Assembly: GCF_018143015.1 (NCBI RefSeq)
Contig: NC_054751.1
Location: 21,838,425-21,902,424 of the forward strand
DNA: 64,000 nt
Origin: Lytechinus variegatus
Lineage: Eukaryota > Echinodermata > Echinoidea > Temnopleuroida > Toxopneustidae
Direction: 5' to 3'
In this document: one piece after another, positions 18,101 through 40,953 of the stretch
Position numbering within the stretch: the stretch's first letter is position 1
Layout: every line of letters starts with the position of its first letter
The notes under the pieces: model-generated
What the model saw: only the letters and a program-made list of their open reading frames with translations
Told to the model about the DNA's origin: nothing
The model's database searches: none
Program-made: the position numbers and the translations under genes

Positions 18101-21100
18101 CTTGCCATATTACTTTCCACCAATAGAGGGCATGCACAAAAATATGCCCAAGATTCAAGTTTTTGAGCGCTCTGGTGAATACCAAAATTATTCCCATGTT
18201 ACTAATGAAAAATAAATTGCAACTGTATGGAAATTAATATTTTGGGTCAGAAAAGTGTTATTTTAATGATTACATGTATCTTTAAAGTGTGTGTTGTGTA
18301 CTGCATTGGCATACCATAGTCCTACCTGTAGATTCACCACAGGCAGGATAGTTGCATTAAACTGTCTGATTTTTTTTATCTTGATGAAAATAGTGCAAAA
18401 TTGAAGTCTACAAAATTTCATAGTATAATGCCTGAATCAGTATTTGAGTAATAATCAAATGAATTTCGAATGAAATTCAGCCAAATGCTCCCAATAGGCT
18501 CTGTAGTATAATTTTTCACAACACACTTAGAGTGCAGATATTTTGTGTGCAGTTTTACATTGGCTTTCTAGAGTAGTGGGGGAAGGGTATTTACAAGACT
18601 TTGAACTTCTTTTAAATTGATGCCACATAAAGCATTTTATTCTCTTTGATTTGATACCAAAATCATTAAAATTGGATATTAAACGGGATCATATATGTCA
18701 GAAATGCAATGAACATGATTTTTCCCTCAAAACCATGACCATTTTTAGCTGCGTGAATGCGGTGAAAAGGGCAAAACTTTTAACTCTGGTGAAGTCACCA
18801 AAGTACTACTAGTAGCTGCAGTGAGCAAGCCAAGTGGGATTACCATTAGCGTGACCAGACATCCTGTATTTCCCAGGATAGTCCCGTATTTTGCTCTTTT
18901 GTCCCGGCGTCCCGACAAACCCTTACCGGGACGCCTATTTGTCCCGTATTTTAAAATATTGAACAAAATATAGTTAATACATTTAAAAGTGACAAATCAA
19001 TTTTCTTCAAATAATCAACAATAAAATTGATAACTAAACTTTTGCAAGTTCTGCAGTGATTTTCTTGCTAACCTAATACCATGAACTACATTGGAAACGA
19101 ACTGGCCTCCTGCCTGTGTGTGGCACGCTACTAGCTAGGCATGTAGGATCTGAGCAGATTCTCAATGGTGCAAACAATCTCACATGATAAACAGTTTTTC
19201 CACCAAAATAATCACAAAATCAGCAGTAATTTTTTTATATAATGGATTCTCAGAGAACTGATTTGGAGATGAAATCGGAGGAACAAGTTATTGAGTTTTC
19301 ATAATTAGAACTAGTTGTTTCAGCTTTGGTTTTTGGTTTTGAGTCTTGTTAACGGTGCGAACTTGTAATGGGATGAGAGATGCCTGTATATGATGCTGCA
19401 ATGTTTCATCTTGTTTTTAGGTTTGATAATGTTTCACTTTAAAATTTTATTCATTTCTAGAAGATTTTATTTTTTACACTTTTAAAAATATATTTAAAAA
19501 CACCAAATATCATTATGATTTTTGGTATACAATTGAATTTTTTTTATTGCTTAAAGTTTGAAGTTTTTCCTTTCTTTCTTTTCTAACTCTATCATTGTTC
19601 TATCCTTCCTGCTTGCTCTTTTTTTGTTCCATCTATCTTATTTTTAAGTTTGAAAATGTTTCACATTAAAATTTTATTCATTTCTAATTTTTTTTAGATT
19701 TTTAAACTTTTAAAAATATATTTAAAAAACACCAAATATCAAAAGATTTTTGTTATATGATTGGATTTTTTTTGGCTTAAATTTTGAAATTTTTCCTCTT
19801 TCTTTCTTTTCTATCCTTCTTTATTCTATCCTTCCTGCTTGCCCTTTTTTGTTCAATCTATTCTTTATTTCCTATCTTTCTTCCCTGAACCTTTCTCTTT
19901 CTCTCACTTTCCTTCTTTATTAAATTTCTTTTTTTATTTCCTTCATATTTCTTTCCTTAAACTTTATTTGTTTCCTTCTCCCTTCCGCTCCTTTTTTTTT
20001 CATTCTTCCATCATTTTCTTTTTTCATGATCTCCTCCATTCTTTCCTCCCTCTTTCTTTCATTATTTTGTCCTTCTTTTTCCCTTATTCTTTTTTTCCTT
20101 CCCTTCCTGTTTTTTTTTTCTTTCCTCTTCCTTTTTTCTTTCTTTTTTCCTTTCTGTTTCCAGACATTTATTCATCTTTCTTTTCTTTTCTTCCTTTCTT
20201 TTTTTTCTTTCTATTATTCGTTTCAAAGAATAATGGAATCCTTTTTTCTCTTTTATTTTCTTTCATCCTTCTTTTATTCTATCTTTCTTTGGATTTTTTT
20301 CCTTCATTTCCCCTTCATTTTTTTCTTTCTTCTCAATTCATCTCTTTTCGTTCATCTTTACTTTCTCTCCTTCATTCTTTTGTTCACCCTCCCTTCCAAT
20401 TTTTATATTCTTTTTCACAAGTCTAACACTGTAGCCTTCTTTGTTGATCCGCTCGTGCAGCATGCTTTGTCAATTGTCACGTAGATTCTAGATCATTTTG
20501 TGAAATCTGGTCACCCTGTCCCCGATTTTTGAAGACTTGCCATCTATTATTTCTAGGCCCTGGCCTAAGGCTAAGTTGACTTGTTTTGAATCAACATGTT
20601 TACATTAATGACTGACTGGCATGCTCAATTGCATTGGTGCTGGCACATCTAGTCTTGAGGACGCAATGATGATGATTTTTTTAAATATGTCATATATTTC
20701 TTCATCATTGACGTCTTGACACTCTCTCCATAGTGCCTTCAGCGAACGACCAAAACAAAGATGGATTCCCCAAAAAATCCATCCTTTTAAACCGAATTAA
20801 AGAGCATTCATTTAATTTTATTAATTCTTACACCTTCCTACGCCTAATGCGTAGGAAGGTTTTAAATATTACTATTTAAAAATGTAAAAAAATGAAGATT
20901 TCTTACCTAACTGATGCCGCGTAGACCCCTCGTTCCGCATGTAAACAACGGAAATACAATAGCGTCGACCCTTGAACCGCTTATGTATGACGTACTTCCG
21001 GAAAGCAATGCCGTCTTAACGAACAATTTAGAGATAAAAAATCTTATTTAACAAATATTAAAATTTATTTTGTGATCATAAATAATTCATATCAATATAT

Positions 21101-24100
21101 ATAAATTATTTATGATCACAAAATAAATTTTTATATTTGTTAAATAAGATTTTTTATCTCTAAATTGTTCGTTAAGACGGCATTGCTTTCCGGAAGTACG
21201 TCATACATAAGCGGTTCAAGGGTCGACGCTATTGTATTTCCGTTGTTTACATGTGGAACGAGGGGTCTACGCGGCATCAGTTAGGTAAGAAATCTTCATT
21301 TTTTTACATTTTTAAATAGTAATATTTAAAACCTTCCTACGCATTAGGCGTAGGAAGGTGTAAGAATTAATAAAATTAAATGAATGCTCTTTAATTCGGT
21401 TTAAAAGGATGGATTTTTGGGGGGAATCCATCTTTGTTTTGGTCGTTCGCTGAAGGCACTATGGAGAGTGTCAAGACGTCAATGATGAAGAAATATATGA
21501 CATATTTAAAAAAATCATCATCATTGCGTCCTCAAGACTAGGCACATCTTACGGTTCAAATTTCTGGGATTTCTAGTAAGTTGTGTGGAGAAAGCTGCGA
21601 AACTGCATTTAGGCAGCGCCAATGTCCGGACAATAGACCCCCCCCCCTTGCCCCGGGGACCCCGACACGTCTTCAGACAGTGTCGGGGTCCCGAGTCCCT
21701 CCATGCATTCTCACCGGAGTACAAAACTTCGCGATGTTTGGCATTAGAAAACCGGTGATAATAATGAATTAAAAATCTAACGATGAATATCGATCTTACC
21801 TAAACAAATTGTTCCTAAATCAGCTTAACTTTCAATTAAAACTGATGTATACAATTCCAAGAAATCCTTCGAAAGAACGTCAATTTTCGGACTTTTGTTC
21901 CAATCGCGAGATCGCCATGTTTGAAGAACGTGAAAATAGTTTCTGCGCATGCGTATATAAATATTCATAAGATGACGTCTCTGCCTTTACAAAACAGTTT
22001 AATGAATATGCATGTAGTCAAAACTTTCGGCAAGTCGCCTCGATTCAGTTACATCGTGATTTAGGCATGTTCAATACCATTTTTTCATTTTAATTTGAAA
22101 AAAAATCTGTATTAATGAAAAAATAATTTATTTCATATATATTTCTATTTTGTTACATTCTGTGTTTTTATAATACATGTTTATATTTTTTTTATTTGTC
22201 ATTTGTTATAAACTTATATTTCTTTCTCCTTTTCATTCTTTTTATGCTTTGCTTATGGGAAGGGGGGAGCATGACTGTTCTCTTGGTGTGTGTGTGTTTT
22301 ATATACTGAACAAAATAAAATTTACGAAATAGCATGATTGTGTATTATATTTATATTAAGAGATATCTAGATCATGTAGAAACTTTTAGTCTGTATTATG
22401 ATTATTCCCTTTGTGAGTATTAGATATTAAAGAAATAGTTACAGATTCTAATTTTACATTTAGAATAACGATTTTCTTAATATGAATCCTGATTTTATTG
22501 ATGTTATTCATCTTTTTCACTTGTTATAGCAATTAGGAAGGAATGAATATGATTTTAAATGAAAGGACATACTTAAAAACAACTTTGCCTCCTTTTAAAA
22601 TAAATATCAAGATATTGTAAAGAATAAATAATTATGATTAAAAAAAAAATTCTGCCGCTTTGATAATCTCTAATCACCATGGCAGTAGCATAGGTTTTTT
22701 TAATCGCCCCCCTTCTAAAGAAAATTGATACGAAACGACCTCCAATTTTATGTTGAAGACCTTTTTTTGCTTGTCAAATTCACATTAAAAACATCGAACT
22801 CACTGCCGGATCCGGGGGGGAGGGGCAAAGCCGGCTCGCCCCCCCCTTGAGAAGCATAATGAAAATTTGTGATGTTAAAAATGGTGTTAAAGCTGAACTG
22901 TGCCCCCTCCCCTTTTTTTCTTGTCAAATTTTTTTCAGGCCAAATAATTTTTTTTTGTTAAAAAGATTTCTTTCATTTTGTTTTTTTGGCTTAGCAATTT
23001 TTTTTTCCTGGACGAAATTTCCTTAATTTTGGTTGGAAAACCTTTCTTCTTTTTTTTTGCTCGTCAGATTTTTCACTGGAAAAATTTGCCCCCCTTTTGA
23101 AAATCATGGTTCCGCCCCTAATTGAGCTCATTTATATGAAGTGCTTACACTGTCAAAAATAATTTAAACAACACTATTTATTGTGTGATTTGCGCAGTAG
23201 TTGTTTAAACATTTTAAATAAGTGTTTAAAATCTTAAACAATCAAGCTTTAATTATTGATAATTTGATATTTGAATTTAATTATTGATAATCAAATTTTG
23301 AATTTAAACTGTGTTGTTTAAGATTTTAAATATTTGTTTGAACAATTGTGTGATTCGTGTCGTAAACAGCGTTTTTTCAATCATTTTTAACAGTGTATTT
23401 GAATGATTAGGAACAAAAAGTGACATGCAAAATATCAAATTAATGGCGCAAAATAGGCGACAGGAGATTGATGACATATGAACTTCCATCATCTAGTAAT
23501 ATTGTACTTTTTTCACAATTTTTATAACTGCCCCTTTACATGCTCATGATAAGGCCGTCTGCGGCCCCAAATAAATTCACTAGTAAAGAGCTGAAAAGCG
23601 GAAGAAGTAGCCTTTGTGGGTAATTGACATCATTGTTATAAAGTTTACCGCCCTTACCTAGGGATCGGAAAGTTGGTATTGATCAATTTGAAGAAATATA
23701 TTACTTTGACCTGTAATCTTAATAAAAGTTCCGTTCCCAAATATTATTTTTTAAAACTTGATGCCGCAACGAAACAAAATAGAATTAAGCCGAGATGGGA
23801 AAACGGGGAAAGGTAAACAAAGGAGAAAACTATATTTTCATGATTTCCTCGCAAACTTGCGAGGAAGCAAATATTTATAGAGAAAGAAAATCCCGCAAAG
23901 CTATCTTTTTCGCCATTGCTTACCCTTCGCTCTCACCATTTCTCATGTTCTTTTTTTTGGGGGGGGGTGGCGTTAGGATGGGGTAGGCCACCCCACCGCC
24001 TCCTTGCGACGCACTTGTTATAGAAAAATGGAAAAGGTTCATGACAAAGGCCTGACTTTTATTGGGATGTTATGACAAAATCTATCACAAAATTTGATTT

Positions 24101-27100
24101 CTGCATCAATACTTCAGTGGTACTGCAGTAGAAATATAGATAAGCTGATTTAGTGTCATCATTATTATTCATTAATTCTTATAAGCAAAACAATTAAGAT
24201 ATATAAAGAACGGGACGTATTCGAAAAAAAGCGCCTCTTGGATGCCAGGAAAACAATCAGATAAGCAAGATTCCCGGCGAATTTATGCATCCTATATGTA
24301 ATGAGCAATTCAATTCTTTGTAATTACAGGCCTATACTTATCCCGCAGCAGCGTTCTCGCCAGGATTTTTCTTACGCGTGTCGCAAACCCGCCGATTCGG
24401 TGGTGGCCGATTTTACACGTGATGTTTTGATTTTCACATGTGCTTTGATGATTTGATGCTGGTAAAGTCAAGTTTCATTGCCAATCCGCGAAGTTCACTG
24501 TAATATTGTTCTAATCGGCGGCGCACACCAATACCTAACTTAGAGTTGACATCGGCAAAATGTTGAAATGTTAAGTTGCTGTTTATCTAAAAATGTATGG
24601 GTCTTTTTGTCTGGAAATGTTTTAGTGTTTTGAGCTGTATTGACTTAAAATATATTTGAAATACCTTTCGTTGTGGACTCCCGTTCTCCGAGAAGAAATA
24701 TAAATCACGCATCTATCAGGACATGTTTTAACATTGTTTTGAGGCTCAGGTGCTTGAGTTGAAATATATTTGATATGCCTTTCGTTACGGACTCCCGTTC
24801 TCCAAGAGTAAATATAAATCACGCATTTTTCTGACAACCGCGGGAAAGAAAAATAAAAGAAAATAGAAGTCACAAATATCTCAGATTAATGAACGATCTA
24901 TGAGGAATGTTTTAAAATTGTTTTGAGGTCCTAACGAGTTAAAATATATTTTATATACCTTTCGCTATGAACTCTCTAAGAATAAAAATCACACATTTAT
25001 TCTGACAACAGCGGAATTGAAAATAAAAGAACAGAAGTCACAAACATTAAGTTTAATGAACGATCTATCGGGACATGTTTTAACATTGTTTTGAGGTGTT
25101 AATGAATTAAAATATATTTGATATATCTTTCAGTACGGACTCCCGTTCTCCGAGAGGAAATATAAATCACGCATCTATCAGAACATGTTTTAACATTGTT
25201 TTGAGGTGTTTGAGATGCCTTTTGTTATATATGGACTCCCGTTCTCCAAAAATAAATATAAATCACGCATTTTTCTGACAACCGCGGGAAAGAAAATAAG
25301 ACAAATTAGAAGTCACAAACATCTCAGATTAATGAACGATCGATTAGGTATGTTGTAAAATTGTTTTGAGGTCCTAACGAGTTTAAATATATTTTATATA
25401 CCTTTCGCTTTGAACTCTCTCAGAAATAAAATTCACACATTTATTCTGACAACAGCAGAAATGAAAATAAAAGAACAGAAGTCACAAACATCTAAGATTA
25501 ATGAACGATCTATCTCAGGACATGTTTTAACATTGTTTTGAGGTGTTGATGAATCAAAATATATTTATTATATCTTTCAGTACGGACTCCCGTTCCCCGA
25601 AAGGCAATATAAATCACGCATCAGGACGTGTTTTAACATTTTTTTTTGAGGTGTTTGAGTTGAAATATATTTGATATGCCTTTTGTTATGTACTCCCGTT
25701 TTCCAAAAATAAATATAAATCACGCATTTTTCTGACAACCGCGGGAAGGAAAATAAAACAAAATAGAAGTCACAAAAATCTCAGATTAATGAACGATCGA
25801 TAAGGTATGTTTTTTAAAATTGTTTTGAGGTCCTAACGAGTTTAAATATATTTTATATACCTTTCGCTTTGAACTCTCTCAGAAATAAAATTCACACATT
25901 TATTCTGACAACAGCGGAAATGAAAATAAAAGAATAGAAGTCACAAACATCTAAGATTAATGAACGATCTATCTCAGGACATGTTTTAACATTGTTTTAA
26001 GGTGTTGATGAATCAAAATATATTTGATATATCTTTCAGTACGGACTCCCGTTCCCCGAAAAGAAATATAAATCACGCATCTATCAGGACATGTTTTAAC
26101 ATTGTTTTGAGGTGTTTGAGTTAAAATATATTTGATATGCCTTTTGTTATGTACTCCCGTTTTCCAAAAATAAATATAAATCACGCATTTTTCTGACAAC
26201 CGCGGGAAAGAAAATAAAACAAAATAGAAGTCACAAAAGCTCAGATTAATGAACGATCGATTAGGTATGTTTTAAAATTGTTTTGATGTCCTTACGAGTT
26301 ACATGTAAGATATATGTTATATACCTTTCGTTTTGAACTCTCTAAGAAATAAAAATCACACATTTATTCTGACAACAGCGGAATTGAAAATAAAAGAACA
26401 GAAGTCACAAACATCTAAGTTTAATGAACGATCTATCGGGACATGTTTTAACATTGTTTTGAGGTGTTAATGAATTAAAATATATTTGATATATCTTTCA
26501 GTACGGACTCCCGTTCTCCGAGAGGAAATATAAATCACGCATCTATCAGAACATGTTTTAACATTGTTTTGAGGTGTTTGAGATGCCTTTCGTTATATAT
26601 GGACTCCCGTTCTCCAAAAATAAATATAAATCACGCATTTTTCTGACAACCGCGGGAAAGAAAATAAGACAAATTAGAAGTCACAAACATCTCAGATTAA
26701 CGAACGATCGATTAGGTATGTTGTAAAATTGTTTTGAGGTCCTAACGAGTTTATATATATTTTATATAGCCCAGTCATTTTAGCCCAAATTTTGACCAAA
26801 CTTGGAACAAATTGCAACAGAATTTTTTCTATCACAATGCATTTCTGTGAGGTCTCTAGTACAACATACTAAAAGTCCCAAACTTTCCGAATAGGGGAAA
26901 GGGAGCTAATTTGCATAAATCCAAGATGGCTGCCAAAATTAATTGATATGCCTTATCCTTAATATTTTTTGTACAGATAATGGAAAAATCTTGAAATGAA
27001 TACGCAATTCACTATGATTAAGATATCATAAATCGATTGCAATCGTTTCCGGGACTGCCCGGTTCATATTTTTCGAAAAATGTGAGAAATTATGTCAAAA

Positions 27101-30100
27101 TTTCCATGTTTTCGGTCAAAAATTGCATGTGCGTTGATATCTTTCTGTTTTATCATTAGCATCAACAACTAATGCAAAATATCAGCATTCGACAAGAAAG
27201 GGGATATATCAACGAGAAAATTGATATGCTTCATAACAGTATTAATGTCTTAACTTGCTTAGATTAAGCGCAAATACATCCGAATGTATTATGCGATATT
27301 GCGACAAAGTGACACCAAAAACCAACCTCCGTGTCCCAGTCAGTCTTTTATATCGACTACAACGCGATCGCTGGCATGCCTTTGAAGATAGTACAATATA
27401 TTAAATCGGTCTAGCCTCTCCTTTGTTGGTGTGACTAACACGCGTAAATACAATGACGTATAGCGATACAAAGATGTATATTACTTAAATTGATGAGTGA
27501 ACAAAGGGCTTTTTCTGCATATTAAAGTAACTTTTATGTTAATGAAATCTCTTAGAAAAAGTTAGAGGATGCATTGCTCTGCATCCTGCATTTAATTACG
27601 TTCAAGAACATAACAGCATAGCCCCGCAATAGCTTGTCAAAGTTTCCGTAGCTCAACTATTAAAAATATCATGCTTTTTGGAGCCCCCAATGTGACAAAG
27701 CGGTATTTTGCTACAAAGAAAAACACTTTTATTGTCTTGAAATCACTTGGAGGCAAAAGAGTAGGCTTTTCTCTATCAGTTACATATAAAGAAGTGATGG
27801 CACAGCAAGTCCTACCCTTTCTGGGGTCTTCCGAAGTCACGAAACCCCTTTATGTATTTTGCTCATTTCTTGGAAAATTCGCACAATTTTTAGCCCCATT
27901 GAGACAAAAGGTGTTTCCCCTTTGCAGTAAAGTGATTTAATTGTTTTGTAAGCACTTGGGGATGACAAAATAGATTTTCTATTATCAGATAAGTCTGGCA
28001 CAGCAATTAAAGTCTATCCCTTACGGGGTTTGCTAAAGTCAATCACCCCTTTCCATATTTTGCCAATTTATGGAAAAATCTATAAATCCGGAGCCCTCAT
28101 TGAGGCAAAAAGATGTTTCTGCTACAGTGTAAACCACTTTTATTGTTTTAAAACCACTTGGAAACAAAAAAGTAGCCTTTCTTCTATGTGCTACGTATAA
28201 AGAAGTGCTGGCACATCAAAGCCTACATCCTTTAGGGGGCTGCTAAAATCACCCCACCCCTTTTGCGTATTTTGCCCATTTCTTGTAAAACTTTGGAGCC
28301 CCATTGAGGTAAAAGGCGTTTCCCCCTTTGCAGTAGACCACTTTTATTCTTTGGAACCACCTGGAGATAACAAAATTAGATTTTCCTCCATCAGCTACAT
28401 ACAAAGAAGTGCTGGCACAGCAAACCCAACCTCTCAGGGGTTTGCCAAACTCACCCATCCCTTTTCCATAGTTTGCCTATTTATGGAAAATCTATCAATT
28501 CGGAGCCCTCACTGATGCAAAAAATTTGTATATATATGTGTATATAGCAAACCACTTTCATTGTTTCGTAACCACTTGGAGATAAAAAAAATCCTTTATC
28601 AGCTTTATATAAAGAAGTGCTGGCTCAGCAAAGCCTACCCCCTCAGAGGTTCCCTAAGTCTCCCCACGCTTTTTGCAAATTTTCCCCTCCTTATTTTATT
28701 TATAATTTATGGGGAAAATCTGCCAATTTGGAGCCCCTATTGGGGCAAAACGTTGTTTCTGCTCTATAGCAAATTTCTTTCATTGTTTCGTAACCACTTG
28801 GAGATAAAAAAGTAGATTTTCCTCTATCAACTACAATAAAGAAGTGTTGGCTCAGCAAAGCCTACCCCCCTTAGAGGTTCCGAAGTCTCTCCACCCTTTT
28901 GTGCTTATTTTTCCTCTTTCTTAAAACAAAATTGCAGTGTTTGACCCCCCCTATTCAGGCAAAAGGCATTTCTGCTATATGGTTAAGTCACTTTTATTAT
29001 TTGAAACTTAGAGATGAGTAGGTTTGGTTTATCAGCGCATCGACCCTTCCATCTTCAGGGACTCCAAAGTGACAGATTTCCCCATAAATTGGCAAAATAC
29101 GGCGCATCGACCCCTTCCCTCTTCAGGGGCTCAAAATTGACAGATTTTCCTATAAATTGGCAAAATACGGAAAAAGTGTGACTTCGGTATATAGTTTAAT
29201 AGTAGTATGATAGGATGTGGCAGGTCTAATAGCTACATCTTATTTTTCTCTTGAACAAGCAAGCAGTAAATGTCATTATTTTGGTGTACAATGTCACGTG
29301 ACTAGCATATGATAGTTTCCGTGCCTAGACCCTTTCATGTTAAACAATTGATAGAGTCCAAACAGAATCGAATTTATGTATTTAATGTTAATGGTAACAA
29401 TGTTCTTGTAGTATAAATTTTTGCTTTCTGATATTTATGATATAGCGATAGTTTGAAGAAGTCGATGTTTATAGTATATCGAGGCCGGAATTGATATGAT
29501 TTGTAATCGGGTCTGAGTACATAATATACACTAGCGTCGTCTGCTACGTAAACTTAATGAGCGAATATGGCCAAAATTAACCATTATGTTTATGCAAATT
29601 AGAACACTTTCCCCTATTCGGATTTTTGGGGACTTTTAGTATGGTCTTCTATGGACATCAAAGAAATGTTCTGCATTGGAATAAATTCTGTTGCAATTTG
29701 TTCCAAGTGAAAAGTTAAAATGACTGGACTAATATACCTTTCGCTTTGAACTCTCTCAGAAATAAAATTCACACATTTATTCTGACAACAGCGGAAATGA
29801 AAATAAAAGAACAGAAGTCACAAACATCTAAGATTAATGAACGATCTATCTCAGGACATGTTTTAACATTGTTTTAAGGTGTTAATGATTTAAAATATAT
29901 TTGATATACATTTCGTTACAGACTCCCGTTCACCGAGAAGAAATATAAAGCACGCAATTTTCTGACAACAGCGGAAATGAAAATAAAAGAACAAAAGTCA
30001 CAAACATTTTAGATTAATGAACGATCTATCAGGACATGTTTTAACATTGTTTTGATGTGTTGATGAATTAAAATATATTTAATATACCTTTCGGTACGGA

Positions 30101-33100
30101 CTCCCGTTCTCCAAAAATAAATATAAATCACGCATTTTCTGACAACCGCGGGAAAGAAAATAAAACGAAATAGAAGTCACAAAAATGTCAGATTAATGAA
30201 CGATCCATTAGGAATGTTTTAAAAAATTTTGAGGTCCTAACGAGTTAAAATATATTTTATATACCTTTAGGCTTTTGCTATGAACTCTTTAAGAAATAAA
30301 AAAAAATGAAGCTACAGCCAAAGCAAGTGATACCTCCTTCGTCATATAAGGTACATTGCGTAATACCTTGGGTGAAGCAGCTGGGCTAGATCTGTCATCA
30401 GGACACTCGACAACAAATTTAGATAATCTGCCAAGATTTGCTGAACCATTAAATCAGGTAAACATGAGATGAAAATCGTTTCTCTTGGGTATCATTTGGG
30501 CAGCCACTGAGGTCATTTTAAAACATGAGCCATGAGAGCGATTGCTTTGGGTGGTGACGGACATTTCATTGATTTTTTTTTCAATCAGCGACTATACAAA
30601 TAAAAAAAATTATACAAATTCTAATAACTTTTAAAGTCTTTGATGGATTTTCGTAAAACTTTCATCAATGCTTATCATTATGTTTAAGTTCTGCTATGTT
30701 TACAATAAACTTTTTGTCAGGGTGAACTCCCGCTTTAATGTTTGGTCACTTGAAAATGACACCTACGTATCACGAACGTGTGTTTTCAGTAAGTTAATTT
30801 TCAGTTGGGAAATATTGGAAATATACAAAATCACTTATTCATTTTTACCATGCTTTATTTTTTTTCAGGTTGAGACTTCGAAAATGTGTTGACCATTTTC
30901 ATCATTTTGCAATTCAAATTCCCTTTAGAGAGATGTTGCAAAGTCTTAGGCATATTTCTGATCTGTACGATGCAGGATCTAGGGGCGGGGGAGTTGGCAT
31001 GACATATCGATTAAAAATACCTAAACATCGATCTCACGCCACCCCCCCCCCTAGAACATCAATCAATAGAACTGTACACACATGTGAAAAACAATACAAG
31101 AAATTATAGTCTGTTTTAGATGAAAGAATGAAAAATAAATGGTGAATCCAGCAATTAGCTGTCATACAAATAACATTAACATCTCGCTCCTGGGATCTCG
31201 CTTTTTTCCTTTCACAAAATCATCCACATGTATATCGCAAACCGTTTTAACATTCATTCACATTTTCTAATATCAAGAATTAATTTCTTGATGTCAAGTA
31301 TTAATTTCTTGATATTAAGAATTCATTTCTGATTTCGAGGGTCAATGTATTGCAAGAAATCATTCTGATTTTCAATCAGAAATTCTTGATATCAAGAAAT
31401 TAATTCTTGATATCAAGATCTTCATTTTCATTTCTGATTTTGTGCATGCATCAATATATTGCAAGAAATCATTCTGATTTTTATTCACAAATGAATTATT
31501 GATATCAAGAAATTAATTCTTGATATCAAGGTCTTCATTTTCATTTCTGATTTCGTGCATCAATATATTGCAAGAAATAATTCTGATTTTTATTCAGAAA
31601 TTAATTCTTGATATCAAGAAATGAATTCTTGATATCAAGAAAATCATTCTGATATTTATTCAGGAATCAATTCTTGATATCAAGAATTCATTTTCATTTC
31701 TGATTTCGAGCGTCAATGTATTGCAAAAAATCAATCTGATTTTTTTAAAGAAATGAATTCTTGATATCCAGAAATTATTTTTTTATATCAAGAAATGAAT
31801 TCTTGATATCACAAGAAATGAATCTTTGATATCAAGAATTCATTTCTGAATTCGATCGTCAATTTATTGCAAAAAAATCATTCTGATTATTAATCAGTAA
31901 TGAATTCTTGATATCAAGTTAGAAATTAATTCTTGATATAAAAATAAATGTTTTTTGGTATCAAGAATTAATTTCTTGATATCAAGAAATCGTTTTATGA
32001 TATCAAGAAATGAGTTCTTGATATCAAGAAATGAATTTAAGAAATTAATTCTTGATATCAATAAATCTAATAATTTTTGATATCAGAAAATGTTAAAATA
32101 GCTTGCCATACGCACGTCGCTGGCCGGCCAGCACGTTTCCGTTTTACACCCTGGCGAAGGCATTTTCCGGAAAAGTAGCCAAAAAGCGACTAGTGAAGAG
32201 TCTACGTCTACGTTTGTTTACATTATCTGCTGGGCGCGCGATCCAAAGTCCGCACCGAAGTTATCCGCAGAACATAATGCAGCTGAGCTTATACTTTCCA
32301 GGTTCAATACGGATGTTCGGCCTTGATCATTTGCCTTGCCGATTTGCTGATGTCTGTCTTTCTCTCTATCTGTCTATATATCTATCTCTCAAATTCTATC
32401 TCTATCTATCTATCTATCTATCTATGTAACTGCAGTATCTATCTATCTAATAATCTTCTCTGTCTCTCTCATTCGATCTTTATCTAACATCTATCTATCT
32501 CAAATTCTCTATCTCTCTCTATCTATCCATCCATCTGTCTGTCTTTCTGTATTTCTCTCTCTCTACCTACCTATGTAACTACAGTATCTATCTCTTAATT
32601 TGTCGCTCTTCTCTCTCATTCTTGATCTATCTGACATCTATCTATCTCTCAAATTCTCTATCTATCTCTCTCAGATCCATCTATCTATCCATCTGTTAAT
32701 TTGTTAATAATCTTCTCTGTCTCTCTCATTCTTTAATTATCTATTTAATCTCTATCTATCTATCCATCTGTCTGTCTTTTATTCTCTCTATTTTTTTAAC
32801 TTATCTATCTGTTAATTTGTTAATATTCTTTGTCTCTCTCCCTCTTTATCTGTCTAACATCTATCTATCTCTCATCTATCTATCTCTATCTATCCATCTG
32901 TCTGTCTTTCTCTATTTCTCTCTATCTATCTATCTGTTAATTTGTCTATCTTCTCTGTCTCTCTTTCTTTATCTTTCTATCTATCTAACATCTATCTATC
33001 TGTCTCTCAAATTCTCTATCTCTCTCCTTCTCTAGCATCTGTCTGTCTTTTTTTCTCTCTTACTCTTTGTCCGTCCATATTTCTATCTATAACATCTCTC

Positions 33101-36100
33101 CCTCTCTATCGGCTATCTATCCTTCTCTCTCTCTTTCTCTCTCTCCCCCTCTCCCTCTATATGTCGACCTCTCATGTCTCTCCCCCCTCTCTATTTATCT
33201 ATCTATCCATCCATATCTCCCTCTTTCTCTCTCTTTCTATCTATCTATTCACCTCTCTCTCTATTTCTATCTATTTATCTTGTCTCTATCTATTTATCAG
33301 TCTTCTATATCTATCTTTCGGCAGCTTCTAAGTGTATCAATCCATCAAACTTCAATTTGTCTTTCCATTATAAGTATCTGTTTATTTTGATTTTGTCTGT
33401 CATTCTATTCATTCAGTTAATAATTTATTTTTAGAAGAAAAAAACTATCATAAACAACGCGACTGCCGGCAAAAGCATGTTCGATTTCACTCCTGACTGC
33501 CGCTCTCTCTATATATGAAGTGCCGAGGAACTCTGTGCTCTGATATGATCAGTAACTGTGCAAATTGCATGCGGTGGTGGACTCGCCTGTGTCGCACGCT
33601 GCATGCAACCAGCGACGTGTGTAGACTCTTCACTAGTCGCTTTTTGGCTACTTTTCCGGAAAATGCCTTCGCCAGGGTGTAAAACGGAAACGCGCGGCCG
33701 GCCAAGCCTATTATATTAGAGTTCAGAATTTCAACAATTATTTCGTTGTTACATGACAGCAGAAATTGAGAATGAACGTTAAGAATATACTTAGCAAGTA
33801 ATTACTAGGAAAATTATATGGAACAATTCATTTTAAAATCAAAATTACTTGAAAGTTATCAGAATACGGTATCATGTAAAAATGAAAAGTTACGTCGCAT
33901 CGCGGACAATTCAGTTCCAAACATTGCGTGCAGGTCCGGCTCTGGCTCAGCTAGCTACCCGCGCCAGCGGGCTGGCAAAGCTAGCGTGGCTGGGTGGCTG
34001 GCTAGCCGGCTGGAAGTGGAAATGCGCCAGTGTATATGCATGGATATTATCCGGTCAAGTGATAAGATCGTAGTTTGTCTGTTGCCGAAATGATTCTGAA
34101 ACATTCTATATTTTTGAGGATTGATGATGAATGATGCAACAATTATTTTCGATGATTTTCCCTCACTTTTTATAATTTTTTTTTTTTGCCCGTGTCGCTC
34201 ACTTTTTGCGCGTGACGCACCAGGAGCTTGTGGAATTTGCGTGTGTCGCATGCGACGCGAGTGTTCTACACTGGCGAGAACGTTGTGGGAATCCCCGCAG
34301 AGATTTATATACTCAATGATTGAGGCTTAAAGAATGTCAACAAGATGAAAGATTACATAGTAATCTAGAAACAAACATATGAATTTTAATCATATTTCAT
34401 GATCATCTTATAATCTCCGTTCAAACAAATTACAAATTGATATTGATATAAGCATCAAGAGTATATGAAAATGGTTGTTGGATGATAATGAGATTTGCAT
34501 ATATTTTCATTTCATTTATTTATTTTAAATTCTCATTAAAACATACAACATACAATTCAAACTGACAGAATGATTCATGCATGCACAGTATACAAAATAA
34601 ATAAAATGGAAAACATAACAAGAGAGAAAGAACAAAATTAAAATATGTGGGAGCCAGCATTGGACTCCGTGATAATGTCTTTAAAATCATTTCACATCAC
34701 AGAGTCCTCTAGATTCTAGGCTGAGTCAGCGCAGACCTTTCAGTTGCTGGGTTCCAGAAAATGGGCATCAATATCTTAAAGAGATGATTTGCTGATCACT
34801 CAATAATTTTGATCAACGAATATTTTCACAAGCGTACCTCAGAGAGAGAGAGGGGGGGGGGGGTAGACTGCCCCCCCCTCTGACGAGTCATAACTCATGC
34901 AATGGACGTACCCCTGCCCCCATGACGAATCACAACTGATCCCGACGAGCCACAAGTGCCCCCTCTTTTGAACTTGTAGACCTTTTTTTTTCTTATTTGC
35001 TTGTCAATTTTTTTCTGGTACGAAATCATTTATTTCTGGTTGAAGACAATTTCTTTTCTTTTTTTTTGCTTGTCAAATTTTTGGGCAGACGAATTTGCCC
35101 CCCCACGGAAAATTTTGGGTACGCCCCTGAAAATATCCTTTAATATATGAGTATTAATTTATTTCTTCGCTTGTTTATTTACCTATATCTGTAGATTTCT
35201 ATAATAATAATGATAAAAATTTGTAGTACGACACCATGAGTATTATCTCTCGAAGACAAAGAAGACAAGAAGAAAATTAGAGACAAAAAAAGAGAAGAAA
35301 AAAAAGAATAAAAAAAAAACAAATGCGAAAACTAAAAAAAAGGAAGAAAAAAAACCGACCCAAAAATGAAGAGAAGGTAGGGGAACAAAATAACGAGAAT
35401 AAAAAAAAGGGCAAAGGAAAATAAAATAGAACAGAAGAAAAGAAAAAAATGAAGGAGAAAGAAAAAACAAATAATTCAAAAGAAAATATGTTATTTCTTT
35501 CAAAGAAAAAACCAAAGCCGTATGTTGACTTGTTATCAGGCAAAGGGAAAAGCAAGAATTTACGGAACTAGACTCATGAATATTCATGTATCTTTCTCCG
35601 ACGCATCGAATGATAGCCTTTTGTCGGGGCCTTAAGTTATATTTTCTATATGGACTTTAGTGCTATTGGCAAATCTGATGAACATGCATGCGAACTTACT
35701 AAAATTCACAAGGCAGTGTATACAGCCACACGCGTGTGTCTTTACCATCCAGCCACACGCGTGTGGTTATATCCAGAACACATATCTGTGGATACCGCCA
35801 CACGCCGCCAGTAATAACAGTAAAACACGTACGGTATGTCTGACCGTCTATATCACGATCAAAATAACCTCATTTCTTCATTAAATTCTTACATTCTAAA
35901 CCCCTTTGATATCCTTAGATCGTTTCAATTTCATTCTCACCGTCTTCTCTCCTTGCTTTTCTTGTCTTGTTACAAACGGTCGTCTGTTTAACAGCAAATT
36001 CTCTTTTTCTACTTGTGTCGATTCTGGCTTCCTTCGCGGTGGCAGACCCATACAGCGTTAGCGCAGCGCAGTAGTAGACATACACAGTTTGGGTTTCGTA

Positions 36101-37285
36101 CGTACGCGCACATAGCCTAGATTCAGTAGAGTCAACACAAGTAGAAAAAGTGTGGAAATTTGCTATTTAACAGGCGGCCTTTTGTAACAAGACAAGAAAA
36201 GCAAGGAAAGAAGACGGTGAGAATGAAATTGAAACGATTTAAAGAAATCAAAGGAGTTTAGAATGTAAGAATTTAATGAAGAAATGAGGTTATTTTGATC
36301 GTGATATAGACGGTCAGACCTACATACCGCGGTACGAGTTTTACTGTTATTACTGGCGGCGTGTGGCGGTATCCACAGATAGGTGTTCTGGATATAACCA
36401 CACGCGTGTGGCTGGATGGTAAAGACACACGCGTGTGGCTGTATACACTGCCAATTCACAAATATTACGCATATTCAATTATCATTTTATTTTTAAGTAT
36501 ATTTTTCCTTTATTGTTTGTTTTTGTTTTTTTCGCCTGTTTGCTGACAAAAATCAAATTTATCTCGTTGCCTCGTCAAAAGGCTATATCGATCCTCCATT
36601 GGTTCCTGTACAAACGACTTTTAATGCACATCGGAAAAACATCCCTCCATTTTTGCCTAGTTTTGGGACATTACTTCTTCGTTTTGAGGATTGTGAATAT
36701 TGCGGCTTAAGTTGTAAGTATGTATTGATTCCTTCTTTCCAATGTCTTACAATATAACAAATAATCATTAAATTCCCGAATCTCTTTTGGCCGATCCGGT
36801 CCGGATCCGGTGAGCTTGGGTGAAGCTATTCGCAGCCCGAACACAGTACGTGTTCGGGCTGCCGCAGTAAACCCCCCCCCCTGCACGCTCGTTACCCATC
36901 GCACCACATCAAAATAAATGAATGGGACTGTCCGTCAACTCAAATGCAAATGCCCCACACATGATCAAGACGCGTAGGTGAAAGGAGGAAAACATCACAT
37001 TCACGGTAGATAAAACGAATGAGGACGAATTTCGGAGTAGCATCTAGACTCTATCACTACTTACAAGGATTATTCCATGCAATATTACAAATCATTACCA
37101 ATGAAAACTAGTAACTTATCATCAAACTCAAAGCAAGCGCACGAAAATTCGCCAAATTCTAAAGCAAGCTATCCTAGCGCAAAGATTTAACAGTCAACAC
37201 AATGGGCTATCGTTTAAAATACTCCTTGAAAACGAGAATATATATAAACATACTTCTTGAGTTCTGGTGGATGTGCTTTACTCAT
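15059..37285 (-). CDS. SNRPG: Small nuclear ribonucleoprotein G (SmG), four coding exons
   Basis: Joining 37285-37254, 17665-17643, 16279-16155 and 15112-15059 gives 234 nt, or 77 residues (human SmG has 76). The start [11 protein letters not shown] matches the invariant SmG N-terminus. Sm1 is seen in [14 protein letters not shown] (residues 31-44; D35, M38, N39). Sm2 is seen in [14 protein letters not shown] (60-73, with the R-G-N at 63-65). SmG joins the seven-member Sm ring on U1, U2, U4 and U5 snRNAs, made in the cytoplasm and used in the nucleus. All introns are GT-AG with phases that keep frame: K11 and L19 are split by introns, and the last junction falls between codons after V60. Every diagnostic residue is present, so the gene looks functional. 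The first intron is 19,588 nt and packed with repeats. A processed copy is ruled out by the introns. Confidence 0.96.
16155..16279 (-). CDS. SNRPG: SNRPG coding exon 3 (Sm1 motif)
   Basis: Acceptor AACAG, then 125 nt encoding residues 19-60, from [19 protein letters not shown] to KNDIGMV, then donor GTACGT. It holds the Sm1 motif and the variable linker ([10 protein letters not shown]). Confidence 0.95.
16367..17385. mobile_element. TTTAAAGGGATGCTCC-ended MITE split by a hAT-like insert
   Basis: Left end TTTAAAGGGATGCTCCGGGC. Right end, complemented, CTTAAATGGATACTCCAGGC. The arms match inward for about 100 bp ('aaattcac(g/a)gagcaaaat', 'ttcaataac'), and ATGAATATTCAT occurs in both arms. The element lies in SNRPG intron 2 (16280-17642) and is itself interrupted at 16860-17317. 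Confidence 0.75.
16860..17317. mobile_element. 458-bp hAT-like non-autonomous element with 8-bp target duplication
   Basis: The 8-bp string ATTTTGCT flanks the insert on both sides (16852-16859 and 17318-17325), and the matching site in the other arm of the host MITE has it once. Its ends share a CCACACT/AGTGTGG inverted motif. Eight-base duplications are typical of the hAT superfamily. The interior repeats 'ggtcc' and 'ggacca' phrases and has no coding potential. Confidence 0.75.
17643..17665 (-). CDS. SNRPG: SNRPG coding exon 2 (23-nt micro-exon)
   Basis: Acceptor TTGTAG, then 23 nt that complete K11 and encode FMDKRLS plus one base of L19, then donor GTAAGT. The residues match SmG 12-18 exactly in order. 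At 23 nt it is short enough to be missed by gene finders. Confidence 0.95.
19420..19865. repeat. Two-copy tandem duplication, period about 227 bp
   Basis: 'gtttgataatgtttcac' near 19421 recurs as 'gtttgaaaatgtttcac' near 19647. The same order then follows in both copies: 'aaatatatttaaaaa', 'caccaaatatca', 'tttctttcttttct' and 'atccttcctgcttg'. Confidence 0.75.
19560..20430 (+). repeat. C/T-rich low-complexity tract
   Basis: About 870 bp of TTCC/TTTC repeats. The 195- and 152-codon open frames on the + strand are almost pure F, S, L and P and follow from base composition, not from selection for protein. On the transcribed - strand of SNRPG this is a long purine tract. Confidence 0.85.
20651..21540. 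mobile_element. 890-bp fold-back element with 9-bp target duplication
   Basis: Two arms of about 440 bp are nearly perfect inverted copies meeting near 21095. The arms begin AGTCTTGAGG and end CCTCAAGACTA. GGCACATCT flanks both sides (20642-20650 and 21541-21549). Each arm contains its own smaller hairpin (CCTTCCTACGC / GCGTAGGAAGG) and a GATGGATT...AATCCATC hairpin. There is no coding sequence. Long inverted arms with a 9-bp duplication resemble Mutator-like or fold-back transposons. The near identity of the arms suggests a recent insertion or arm conversion. A diverged partial relative lies at 45275-45650. Confidence 0.88.
21656..21692. other. Strong 13-bp GC-rich hairpin
   Basis: GGGACCCCGACAC (21656-21668) pairs with GTGTCGGGGTCCC (21680-21692) around an 11-nt loop GTCTTCAGACA, which can itself close further. 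It follows a C run. The role is unknown. It is not a tRNA, and on an animal intron it is not a bacterial-type terminator. Confidence 0.7.
21944..22017. promoter_or_regulatory. NRF1-like / TATA / CRE-like motif cluster
   Basis: TGCGCATGCG at 21944-21953 is followed at once by TATATAA, then TGACGTC at about 21974 and AATGAATATGCATG near 22002-22015. Motif order parallels the module near 10074. It could be a promoter fossil of a mobile element; no exon was found downstream. Confidence 0.3.
22797..23122. mobile_element. GGCGGATCC-family element fragment
   Basis: It carries 'gccggatccgggggg' at the left and 'ggttccgcccct' at the right, with 'cttgtcaaattttttt' and 'gcccccctttt' phrases between them, as in the related copies at 1312 and 37662. 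It is diverged, and its boundaries are approximate. Confidence 0.45.
23148..23395. mobile_element. 248-bp palindromic MITE, TA target, Tc1/mariner-like
   Basis: Left end CACTGTCAAAAATAATTTAA. Right end, complemented, CACTGTTAAAAATGATTGAA. TA lies directly outside both ends (23146-23147, 23396-23397). The interior pairs further through 'ttaaacaac' and 'aaatcttaaacaa' and their complements. TA duplication and a CACTGT-type end fit a Tc1/mariner-derived MITE. Confidence 0.75.
24600..26766. repeat. Satellite with three-monomer, ~457-bp higher-order unit (left part)
   Basis: Monomers recognised by 'catgttttaacattgttttg' or 'ttttaaaattgttttgaggt' start near 24721, 24908, 25073, 25183, 25346, 25520, 25630, 25803, 25980, 26090, 26263, 26443, 26553 and 26717. 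Spacing cycles through about 174, 110 and 170 bp, giving a 454-460 bp repeat of three distinct monomers. Monomers share 'aatatattt(g/t)atat', 'gactcccgttctcc', 'ataaatcacgcat' and 'tctgacaac(c/a)gcgg'. The array continues at 29732-30300 after an insertion. The repeated short open frames on the - strand are products of the array. Confidence 0.92.
26767..29731. mobile_element. 2.97-kb inverted-end element inserted in the satellite
   Basis: Left end TAGCCCAGTCATTTTA. Right end, complemented, TAGTCCAGTCATTTTA. Inverted similarity extends about 180 bp ('ggaacaaattgcaacagaat', 'ccgaataggggaaag', 'aatttgcataaa'). Outside it, one satellite monomer is interrupted and then resumes in register. The AT-rich target makes the length of the duplication ambiguous. 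The interior holds a separate 205-bp tandem repeat. No transposase open frame was found; the longest frame is 89 codons. Confidence 0.85.
27640..28970. repeat. Tandem repeat, period about 205 bp, inside the inserted element
   Basis: Landmark 'gaagtgctggcacagcaaa' and variants recur near 27791, 27990, 28201, 28405, 28614 and 28841. Each is followed by a 'ctacccc...gggg' phrase and preceded by 'accacttggagataaaa'. About six to seven units, 10-25% diverged by eye. Confidence 0.85.
29732..30300. repeat. Satellite array, right part
   Basis: The monomer broken at 26766 resumes here with 'atatacctttcgctttgaac'. Three to four further monomers follow (about 29860, 30037 and 30215), and the array decays after 30300. 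Confidence 0.88.
31255..32095. repeat. Array of 16-bp palindromes TTCTTGATATCAAGAA
   Basis: About 20 exact or near-exact copies of the self-complementary 16-mer, separated by 'atgaa' or 'attaa' spacers. They are grouped into units of about 105-150 bp by a 'gatttcgagcgtcaatgta' / 'ttgcaagaaatcattctg' phrase (near 31331, 31435, 31549, 31701 and 31849). In single strand it would fold into many alternative hairpins. Confidence 0.88.
32103..33710. mobile_element. Fold-back-like element: inverted arms around a CTAT/CTCT block
   Basis: The left arm (about 32103-32205) and right arm (about 33618-33710) share an essentially perfect inverted stretch of about 70 bp. It runs from GTTTCCGTTTTACACCCTGG to 'gtgaagagtctac' and carries GGCCGGCC outside it. 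The arms diverge inward. Between them, 32340-33330 is (CTAT)n and (CTCT)n. No target duplication was found. Confidence 0.7.
32345..33330. repeat. CTAT/CTCT microsatellite, about 1 kb
   Basis: Imperfect TCTA, TCTC and CCAT repeats, with a longer repeat of 'tgtaact(g/a)cagtatctatc' near 32425 and 32577 and 'tctgttaatttgt' several times. Open frames of S, L, I and Y residues on the + strand are composition artefacts. Confidence 0.92.
34500..34720 (-). repeat. Possible LINE 3' tail, minus strand
   Basis: On the - strand the stretch ends in 'aataaataaatg', and its composition resembles the 3' end of the LINE fragment at 46310-46978. There is no coding remnant, so the call is weak. Confidence 0.25.
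34832..35129. mobile_element. GGCGTACC-ended short element
   Basis: 'AGCGTACCTC' at the left and 'GGGTACGCCCCTG' at the right are inverted. The interior has G and C runs and 'cttgtcaa(a)ttttt' phrases, as in the GGCGGATCC family. CAGTGGCGTACC at 41045 begins another relative. Confidence 0.45.
35712..36452. mobile_element. 741-bp fold-back element with 9-bp target duplication
   Basis: The ends GGCAGTGTATACAG and CTGTATACACTGCC are exact inverted copies. AATTCACAA flanks both sides (35703-35711 and 36453-36461). Arms of about 310 bp are highly similar around a loop of about 100 bp near 36026-36130. Each arm carries two CACACGCGTGTG-type palindromes near its tip and a third degenerate one, which could be transposase-binding sites. 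No coding sequence. It has the same 9-bp duplication class as the elements at 20651 and 39242, but the end sequences are unrelated. Confidence 0.9.
37254..37285 (-). CDS. SNRPG: SNRPG coding exon 1
   Basis: The ATG is at 37285-37283. The exon encodes [10 protein letters not shown] plus two bases of K11, then donor GTATGT. The in-frame context upstream has stops, and the N-terminus is identical to that of known SmG proteins, which fixes the start. Confidence 0.95.
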
Positions 37286-37661: not shown

Positions 37662-38205
37662 CACTGGCGGATCCAGTGGGGGGGGGGGGGGGCGCAGCCG
37701 GGGACAGTCAAATATATTGCTGTACACACGCGTGGCCAAATTATTTCCAAACACCCCCAAATGAGTTTTTCTCTGTGTGCAGAATAACCCCCTAAACAAG
37801 TTTTTTTTCGAGGGCTTTATTTACACATTTTGGCCCCTAAACAAGTTGTCGCCAGATTATGATCCCAGGAAAAGGCTTGGGGAAAAAAACACATACCCTA
37901 AACACGTTTGGCTAGTCTTTTGAAAAAAAAACTTTGGAAAAAAATGCCCCAAATACATTTGACCCTGCAATTGATCATTGAAGGTTGACCAGTCTATCAA
38001 AACTAATATATCCATTTGATACTAGACCGTGGAAGAAATTTCCGTAATATTTGTTTATAAATCCTTTTTTTTTCTTGCTTGTCAAATTTTGCGTGGACGA
38101 AATGTCCTTAATTACGGTTGAATTTTTTTTTTTTGCTTGTCAATTTTTTTTCTTCGGGAAAAGTGTGCTCTCCCCTTTGGAAAATCCTAGGTCCGCCCCG
38201 CTCTG
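37662..38205. mobile_element. GGCGGATCCAG-ended element
   Basis: The left end is CACTGGCGGATCCAGTGG and a G run. The right end is CCTAGGTCCGCCCCGCTCTG. The interior repeats 'ccctaaacaagtt' / 'taaacacgttt' and 'cttgcttgtcaa' phrases, linking it to the elements at 1312 and 7447. No gene is present. Confidence 0.55.
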
Positions 38206-38534
38206 TTCAATTTAATATTTTGATGCCAGGTATATTTTTGAACTTATTATTTGTACAATGTAAGGAAGATGAGTAAAGAACAGCATAATAGTCGTACATG
38301 CATGCAGATTCAGAATGCATTGTGCTGGTCGTTTTTGTTTGTGTGCGTCTGCATACTAGCTCAAGATTATCCTCTGCAATGCTCAAACGGAGTTTTATAA
38401 GCGTCGAATTTACCACCAAAGAAAAAATATTGAATTGAATAAATAAACAAAATAAAAAGCATAATGCTGAAAATGTCATTGAACCCAATATAAAACAAGA
38501 AGATAGTTGTGACATGTTGAAGATTCACCTATCT

Positions 38535-38905
38535 TTCACAAAACAGTTCTTGCACATTATTTTCCTATTCAAATAAAAGATTCGATAATGTCCCTCGCTC
38601 ACCATTTCTTTTATTTTTTGTATTGTTTATTGTACAATATTTCAATTGGTACAGATTTAAGGACCAACTTGACTTAACCACATTAATATTAACGAGAGGA
38701 TTAAACATTGCTTCGCAACGGATGATGAGAGTAATATTATATATTTCATATATTGAAATACAAAAAAATAATTAAAGTGAGTGGACCGTGATGTCATCAG
38801 TCCCCTCATTTATACATATAACTATTTTGTGCAGAGCGGAAGTTTGGAATGTCATAACTTATTTATTTTACATCCGATTTGATGAAACTTTCAGTGTAAA
38901 ATGTT
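38535..38905. mobile_element. TTAAAGG-family MITE, partial copy
   Basis: It carries the family phrases 'gacatcatcagtcccctc', 'atataactattttgtg', 'gaatgtcataactt' and 'tccgatttgatgaaactttc', and the inverted partners on its left. Ends are degraded. Confidence 0.6.
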
Positions 38906-39084
38906 TGCCCGGGGGGCAGCCAACTGCTGTACACATGCGTGACCCCCCAAAACGCGTATTGTCACTATGTTGTACTAATTCCAAATAGTAGATCATTATG
39001 TCCACCAAACATAAATGATGACAATGCCCAACAAGAATATCTCGAGAAATCCGAGAACAAGCGGAGATCCACTCAAACAAAAAA

Positions 39085-40953
39085 AAATGAAAAAAAAGAG
39101 AAAAATCCAACAAGCATATAACACTAAAAAAATTCTTCGAAATTGGATTTAAAATAAGGAAGTTATGACATTTCTAAGTTTCGCTTAATTTCACGAATAA
39201 AACAGTTATATGCATACATCCTGTTTGGTATGCAAATGAGGGGCTTATTTCGAAAGGGTGGGTGCTGTCGCGTTAGGGTGCGTCAACGCGAACGCGAAGA
39301 TTCGTCCAAAGCCCCCCCCCCCCGGTTTGGCCGAAAGGGTGCGTTGGGAGCGCCATGTCGCGTCGCGTTCACTGGAACGCGCCCTTTCGTCCAAAGCCCC
39401 CCCCCCCCCGGTTTGGACGAAAGGGTGTGTTTAATAATAATGAATAAATAAATACAAATATTTATAAGAAAGCTGAACAAACAAAAAAGACGAGTGATAT
39501 GTGAAATTTGCATAGGAACATAAATCATCATATGGCACAAACATTCTTTTAAGGTAAAAAAAAAAAAACAATGACGGCATGCTGCATGAGGATTTTTCGG
39601 TGGAAATGTTTTATGGTGTAATATTGATACATGTAAAAATTATGACTGATTTCAAGGTTCTTTCAAATAAAAAAAAGTAACTTACCTTCAATTTTATACT
39701 TTGCATGTGTGTATTTATTACAAAGGAAAACATTCGTATACCTGGAGATATATTTGGTGTCCCCCAAATTATAAAACTTACGGCAGATGTGTCCTGGAAG
39801 GGCAAGGCCAAAATTGATGTCGGGTCAGCATTCACAACGTTTAACTCTTCAGACCCTACCTTACTATATTTTACACTTGAGACCCTGCCTCAGTATATTT
39901 TGTGAGATGTATCTGTTGTGTATGTGTGCGTGTTGTGTGTATAATAATAATATGTGCGTGTTGTTTGTATAATAATAATAATAATAATACTTATAATAAT
40001 AAAAATAATAACAATAATAATAATAATACTTATAATAATGATAATAATAATAATTTTCACCCCAAAGAGTGAATTTATGGAAATGAATTTGGAGTGAAAA
40101 ATTGGCGCCAAGTGGCTTATTGCAAGGGTGGGTATCTGATTTTATTATCATTATTATTATTATTATTATTATCATTATTATTCTTAGTTGAACTTTTCTT
40201 TCTTTTCCTCAAATTGTCAATGCTTTAAATGATTGAAAATCCACTATTTTACGTGCAAATTGGAAATGTTTGACAAAATACCTTATATTCAGCTTTCTTA
40301 TAAATATTTGTATTTATTTATTCATTATTATTAAACACACCCTTTCGTCCAAACCGGGGGGGGGGGGCTTTGGACGAAAGGGCGCGTTCCAGTGAACGCG
40401 ACGCGACGTGGCGCTCCCAACGCACCCTTTCGGCCAAACCGGGGGGGGGGGGGCTTTGGACGAATCTTCGCGTTCGCGTTGACGCACCCTAACGCGACAG
40501 CACCCACCCTTTCGACATAAGCCCAAATGAGGAGACTGATGACGTCATCCACTCACTATTTCTTTTATATTTTATTATATGAAATATGAAACATTCTCAT
40601 TTTCTCCTCATTGTCCAGTACAAAAATTAATTCCTCCGGTCCTCCATGAACATGTGGAATTTGTTTAATATTATATTATTCAGTCAGGTCGGTCCCTATA
40701 TGGTCAAATCTTTAAAAAATGAAATATTGTATAATTCAAACAATAAAAAACAAAAGAAATAGTAAGTGATGGACATTATCGACTGACTTATTTGCATGTC
40801 ACTGAGTTGTGCATATCACTGTTTCGTGAAAAATAAGCGAAACTGTAAAATGCCATAACTTTCTTATTTATCCGATTTTGATGAAATTTTCAGTGTTATG
40901 CTAGTGTGATTTTTGTTCTATATTCAAATCAACGTTTTGCTGGGGTGGAATTG
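39085..40953. mobile_element. TTAAAGG-family MITE, copy split by a fold-back element
   Basis: The left part (39085-39241) and right part (40533-40953) together form one copy of the family. The insertion at 39242-40523 falls at the 'tatgcaaatgagg' of its left arm. The right part ends 'ggggtggaattgacctgta'. Confidence 0.7.
39242..40523. mobile_element. 1282-bp fold-back element with 9-bp target duplication
   Basis: CAAATGAGG flanks both sides (39233-39241 and 40524-40532). The ends are GGCTTATTTCG and CGACATAAGCC. Arms of about 233 bp are nearly identical inverted copies. Each arm holds two palindromic modules in which TTCGTCCAAAGCC, a C run and GGTTTGGMCGAAAGGGTG follow one another. The central part has (TAA)n and (ATT)n tracts at about 39941-40060 and 40140-40190. 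No transposase seen. It lies inside a TTAAAGG MITE, so it is younger than that copy. Confidence 0.9.

Follow-up and report, generated by a model that had tools for sequence, protein, structure and literature searches.

Fold-back transposons with target duplications of 8-10 base pairs (bp) and an affiliation to Mutator are a published kind of element, and the Phantom and Rehavkus groups are among the systems named in those parts of the literature that we draw on here. Phantom members of the Mutator-like elements (MULEs) make duplications of 8-10 bp, their terminal inverted repeats (TIRs) are 18-613 bp long if present at all (PMC6446971), and their transposases are characterised by a FLYWCH domain paired with a MULE domain (PMC3169594). 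We analysed a 64,000-nucleotide stretch of the Lytechinus variegatus genome (NC_054751.1, our G000:C12:21838425-21902424), called the window below, in which an initial annotation had picked out three fold-back elements, here named E1, E2 and E3. We consider it probable that these are non-autonomous fold-back DNA transposons of three unrelated families, mobilised in trans by DDE transposases that we infer to be of the MULE (Mutator/Phantom) kind and to comprise more than one enzyme.

The Tm1 Mutator/Foldback family of root-knot nematodes, as the consulted part of its description has it, resembles E1-E3 in its long inverted repeats, which are composite and vary in length, in its 9-bp duplications and in its many non-autonomous members, and its end motifs differ slightly between the two ends, as they do in E3 (PMC3169594). 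Tm1 has a Phantom-type autonomous member, whereas none was found for E1-E3 at the places described below, and the likeness is one of description. Muta1 of Aedes aegypti, a Phantom-clade element classed as a fold-back MULE, has a fold-back TIR with sub-terminal repeats, duplications of 8 or 9 bp in a yeast assay and hundreds of non-autonomous derivatives (PMC5225508, PMC6446971), all features that recall E1-E3. It differs in its 145 bp TIR with tandem 12-mers and its little target preference, against arms of ~310 bp and a leaning towards A/T in E2. Tetris of Drosophila virilis is a non-autonomous fold-back element with 8-10 bp duplications, for which the sections of the account used here report no transposase, and it was placed in Mutator by duplication length (PMC4079207). 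The 220-bp tandem repeats in its arms set it apart from E1-E3, as does its copy number, structurally complete Tetris copies numbering three where exact E1-E3 ends run to hundreds.

Analogy with these systems gives good support to the view that E1-E3 would work like published fold-back elements of Mutator type, and the three families belong to an already known kind when compared by description, with Repbase and Dfam outside the comparison. The novelty anticipated in the initial annotation does not extend to the combination of fold-back arms, 9-bp duplications and a link to Mutator, which is that of Tm1, Muta1 and Tetris; the titles and abstracts of the fold-back and sea urchin literature searched contain no description of E1-E3. 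Long inverted repeats are also said to mark the TU elements, described from the sea urchin Strongylocentrotus purpuratus (Liebermann 1983, cited in PMC4079207), which reportedly have 8-bp duplications and 15-bp tandem units, unlike E1-E3.

Three fold-back elements and their target duplications

Sequences and coordinates were taken by direct reading of the window and then from its self-alignment, which placed all three elements where the initial annotation had them; intervals are unstranded unless a strand is given. E1 (20650-21540) is 891 bp long, with symmetric ends TAGTCTTGAGG...CCTCAAGACTA and the TIR TAGTCTTGAGGACGCAATG; its arms of ~440 bp are 98% identical (434/442 alignment columns over 440 bp) and ~6-11 nucleotides separate them. 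E2 (35712-36452; 741 bp) has the end GGCAGTGTATAC, the TIR GGCAGTGTATACAGCCACACGCGTGTG and arms of ~310 bp, and lies between copies of the 9-bp AATTCACAA at 35703-35711 and 36453-36461. E3 (39242-40523; 1282 bp) has slightly different end motifs (GGCTTATTTCG and GGCTTATGTCG), arms of ~236 bp that are 98% identical (233/237 columns) and a centre of ~810 bp with simple repeats, and is flanked by the 9-bp CAAATGAGG at 39233-39241 and 40524-40532. The arms had been called nearly identical throughout, which holds for E1 and E3; those of E2 agree in only 286 of 321 columns (89% over the 310 bp used), with 98% in the outer 121 bp and 93% in the inner 167 bp of the self-alignment. Perfect 9-bp flanks are likewise present at E2 and E3, while the window copy of E1 has the 8-bp GGCACATC on both sides (20642-20649 and 21541-21548) under symmetric ends, because the ninth flank base that had been counted, a T, is the first base of E1's own left end.

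Short palindromes lie within the arms of each element, all read without a shuffle control: TTCCGGAA and an imperfect hairpin in E1, CACACGCGTGTG and CCACACGCGTGTGG in E2, and TTTCGAAA in E3. No transposase is encoded in the three window copies, whose ATG frames reach at most 45 (E1), 51 (E2) and 103 (E3) amino acids, and pairwise comparison gave short matches only (best expectation value, E, 0.28), with none between E2 and E3, so that the differing ends and the lack of coding sequence noted initially are borne out. Arms make up most of E1 and E2, around a small or simple centre; in E3 they account for 2 x 236 of 1282 bp, which is a fold-back structure in part. E1, E2 and E3 are thus mutually unrelated fold-back elements.

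The families were surveyed in the window's own genome (869.6 Mb in 33 contigs). Exact end words occur 552 times for E1 (23-mers, 292 + 260), 582 times for E2 (21-mers, 299 + 283) and 429 times for E3 (26-mers, 212 + 217), and the reversed words occur 0 times in each case. Twenty further loci per family, drawn from the best 40-42 matches listed, made up 63 loci together with the window copies, a sample in which young copies are over-represented because of the way it was drawn. Of the 63 loci, 57 could be paired at both ends (E1 20/21, E2 18/21, E3 19/21); L028, L047, L051, L054, L061 and L069, in which the second end is lacking in the fetched stretch, were excluded from the duplication counts, L028 being unpaired because it has a single E1 arm. 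An exact 9-bp duplication flanks 45 of the 57 paired copies (16/20 for E1, 15/18 for E2 and 14/19 for E3), and at least 8 of 9 positions match in 18/20, 15/18 and 16/19, respectively. The exact duplications comprise 16 distinct 9-mers in E1, 14 in E2 and 12 in E3. When the left flank of one element was paired with the right flank of another, exact 9-mers were obtained in 0/380 pairings for E1, 2/306 for E2 and 4/342 for E3, a control rate of 0 to 1.2%, and these matches arise because three pairs of loci, presumably duplicated, repeat their 9-mers (L041/L042, L057/L058 and L072/L073). The chance of a 9/9 match from base composition is 7.5e-6. Since the 9-mers differ among copies and cross-pairing gives almost none, they are target duplications and not element sequence. 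The initial annotation had expected 9-bp duplications to prevail among copies found with the terminal sequences, and had named 8-bp, TA or no duplications, or 9-mers lying inside the element, as the contrary outcome; the 9-bp duplication dominates in all three families.

Some copies depart from this pattern, and they weigh against the reading given above. Two of the 20 E1 copies, the window copy (L001) and L023, have exact 8-bp duplications; three of the 18 E2 copies match at 7/9 (L038), 3/9 (L039) and 6/9 (L049) positions; and among the E3 copies L064 has exactly 8 bp, L076 7/9 and L074 2/9. Duplications of 8 bp are those of hAT elements. An assignment of E1 to hAT could appeal to the exact 8-bp duplications of the window copy and L023 and to their symmetric TAGTC ends, which start with TAG, but of the 20 paired E1 copies 16 have exactly 9 bp, a further two agree at 8 of 9 positions, and two have exactly 8 bp. 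The family survey therefore largely rules out hAT, and we regard such an origin of E1 as very improbable.

For E3 the duplication can also be read from an empty site. E3 lies in an older inverted-repeat element (39088-40961; aligned parts 39088-39241 and 40533-40961), an uninterrupted copy of which is present at 47988-48566 as a paralogous empty site. The E3 flanks joined with one 9-mer align to it at 78% over 595 columns with an ungapped junction, and as CAAATGAGG occurs there once, the 9-mer is the target duplication of E3. No empty site for E1 was found among the matches listed: the left flank matched itself only, and the 39 other match rows of the flank search arise because the right flank runs into another repeat, partly G/C-rich (21637-21748). 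Many copies with the same precise inverted ends in different flanks, duplications of fixed length outside the element (exactly 9 bp in 45/57) and the E3 empty site mark these families as cut-and-paste DNA transposons with terminal inverted repeats. What had been a visual impression, three unrelated fold-back families with a common 9-bp duplication, is now measured. The best copies measured per family diverge by only 1-4% and the families would be usable as markers of recent transposition; our knowledge of transposition itself is unchanged by this finding.

Candidate enzymes for E1-E3

In the mechanism that we propose, a DDE transposase supplied in trans would bind the long inverted repeats, in which the sub-terminal palindromes are putative binding sites, would cut the element out and would join it to a staggered target cut, whose repair would leave a 9-bp direct repeat and occasionally one of 8 bp. 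A MULE enzyme is the likeliest, though unproven, candidate. The duplications of E1-E3 agree with the 8-11 bp, mostly 9 bp, given for MULEs in the part of the review consulted (PMC6446971), and membership of the superfamily, which rests on duplication length and architecture, is not proven.

PF10551 (MULE) domains are found at 31 places in the genome, and nine of these were read: L077 with its flanks L092/L093 (7.0 kb), L078 and L079 (3.3 kb each), L080 with L101 (4.5 kb), L081 (5.5 kb), L090/L091 (5.2 kb minus the middle of the gene), L098 (5.8 kb), L099 (5.6 kb) and L100 (5.8 kb). L077-L079 are near-identical to one another; L080 and L100 form a second such set, L100 agreeing at 97% with L080 plus L101 across ~4.57 kb. 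A FLYWCH and a MULE domain are encoded in a single frame in L081 and in two overlapping frames in L080, which makes these genes Phantom-like in their domain pair. The best score of L077 is to a ZSWIM-type protein, and it may be a domesticated gene. A complete E2 is inserted ~90 bp past the end of the FLYWCH and MULE frame of L081 (3686-5411). At C6:17306731, where a MULE domain lies ~600 bp from an E2 arm, an autonomous E2 was considered and rejected, since the E2 is complete with its own TTTTATAAA duplication and is thus a separate insertion beside a MULE gene.

The results of this search add to the points on the other side. All nine MULE places read lack E1-E3 ends of their own. Apart from the complete E2 beside the MULE frame of L081, a separate insertion with its own duplication, the matches there are weak (best E ~0.01) or simple repeats, with element boundaries at these places not established; self-palindromes occur in L080, L099 and L100 without bracketing the MULE gene. 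The nine of 31 MULE places, two of 51 Merlin places and six long copies examined yielded no autonomous copy with E1, E2 or E3 ends. The full-length element with the same ends and a MULE-type transposase that the initial annotation had looked to was not found at the nine MULE places, and of its description of the elements as probably Mutator-like it is the element type, which fits published Mutator/Foldback elements, that holds.

Merlin-type domains (PF12762) are as common, at 51 places, the two best of which have open frames of 528 and 531 amino acids. The duplications of Merlin elements are 8 to 9 bp. E2 and E3, whose ends start with GGC, could on this basis be non-autonomous Merlin elements, and the common boundary of homology of the Merlin pair L088/L089 begins GGCATTCTC, sharing GGCA with E2 and three bases with E3, which shifts the odds slightly in that direction. 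Yet L088 and L089, two of the 51 places, have no match to E1-E3 at E 0.01, the common GGC(A) is so short that it carries little weight, and in the published accounts, in the parts used here, it is with MULEs that long fold-back arms and 9-bp duplications are associated. We consider a Merlin origin of E2 and E3 rather unlikely, and a MULE enzyme remains our preferred candidate.

The initial annotation proposed that one active transposase class mobilises several families. That one and the same transposase moves all three is suggested by their equal duplication length and similar architecture in the same genome, and by their similar divergence, with same-side arms 96-99% identical in each family across the best copies measured, 16-18 in number. 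The target composition points the other way: A/T makes up 66 of 144 bases (46%) in the exact duplications of E1, 124 of 135 (92%) in those of E2 and 80 of 126 in those of E3. When E1 is compared with E2 on somewhat larger sets (68/153 and 124/135), a Fisher test gives p ~1e-18, a value that is too small because bases within one site are not independent. Unrelated ends and different target compositions together speak against a single enzyme for E1-E3, which is accordingly unlikely, and we give a common transposase little chance; the difference in targets suggests that more than one enzyme acts on these families. With the E1 and E2 targets differing, Merlin transposases also present and the nine MULE places lacking E1-E3 ends of their own, mobilisation by one class was not borne out.

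Arms, composites and long copies

Arm comparisons among the copies bear on how the fold-back structure is maintained. For E1 (17 elements) the mean identity between the arms within an element is 99.3%, against 98.8% between left arms, 99.1% between right arms and 98.9% between left and right arms of different elements. The corresponding values are 95.7%, 99.0%, 98.2% and 95.6% for E2 (16 elements) and 97.0%, 98.6%, 96.1% and 97.0% for E3 (18 elements). Because arms within an E2 element are less alike than same-side arms of different elements, E2 arms descend separately and there is no general homogenisation, while in E1 slight homogenisation of the arms may occur.

E1 and E2 ends lie no more than 5 kb apart at 9 places, compared with 0.26 expected, among the end places listed on contigs C1 and C2 (157 Mb); within the same distance E1 and E3 ends meet at 0 places (0.19 expected) and E2 and E3 ends at 1 (0.20 expected). 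Four of the nine E1-E2 places were fetched (L094, L095, L096 and L097, at C1:3945700, 23757850, 56465200 and 2336050) and have a common composite, 96-99% alike, in which E2 is followed by ~475 bp (longer in L096) and then by an E1 variant of 765-770 bp. In L096 the left side of the E1 variant (533-723) consists of 33 bp of E1 end and then an inverted 156-bp copy of the DNA to the right of the variant, which is identical to L094 2216-2375 in 154 of 160 columns. This structure is as would be expected if repair synthesis had rounded the hairpin, passed its tip and entered the neighbouring DNA. Template-switching repair in TIR elements is described in the consulted part of a published account (PMC8277862), and L096 offers a concrete fossil of how fold-back arms may lengthen. 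We put forward, tentatively and as a doubtful proposition still, that one genome has harboured several independent transposases which share the 9-bp cut, prefer different targets (A/T-rich for E2, G/C-richer for E1) and have each given rise to a fold-back family now without a coding parent, the arms lengthening by hairpin-primed copying.

Six widely spaced end pairs (L082-L087) were fetched, five of which have exact 9-bp outer duplications, with L084 matching at 6/9. Each was rejected as an autonomous copy. L082 is an E2 whose centre holds a high-copy repeat (the 40 scored of 511 candidates for the inner piece are all at least 97% identical), L083 and L087 read as an E2 and an E1, respectively, with other DNA inserted, and L084 is an E2 with a retroelement inserted. 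The retroelement, at 2170-5817 of L084, has a 1216-amino-acid open frame and is Gypsy-like by eye. L085 (8880 bp) and L086 (8700 bp) have E3 ends and 9-bp duplications and are 95-97% alike over their main blocks; they represent a long form without a recognisable gene. Scanning 12 of the 39 stop-to-stop frames of this long form gave no Pfam match over the curated cut-off, and it has no similarity to the MULE proteins from the places read. A 601-bp inner piece of L085 has 36 near-full-length matches of at least 94% among the 40 scored of 297 candidates; of the six listed E3 end pairs with a spacing of 8-18 kb, five enclose such a match.

Other repeats in the window

A decayed relative of part of E1, ~76% identical and without recognisable E1 ends, lies at 45284-45653 on the + strand. 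The intervals 47988-48566 and 57899-58510 are inverted-repeat elements with ends like TTAAAGGACAAGTCCACCCC, of the type of the repeat that hosts E3, and we take them to be perhaps Kolobok-like elements with TTAA targets. At 43882-44106 there is a 225-bp near-palindrome whose outer 58-bp arms are 98% complementary, with no obvious target duplication. Repeat arrays occupy 24610-26768, 27680-28927, 29732-30302, 31256-32092 and 32351-33319 between E1 and E2, and the first and third of these are related to each other in the window self-alignment.

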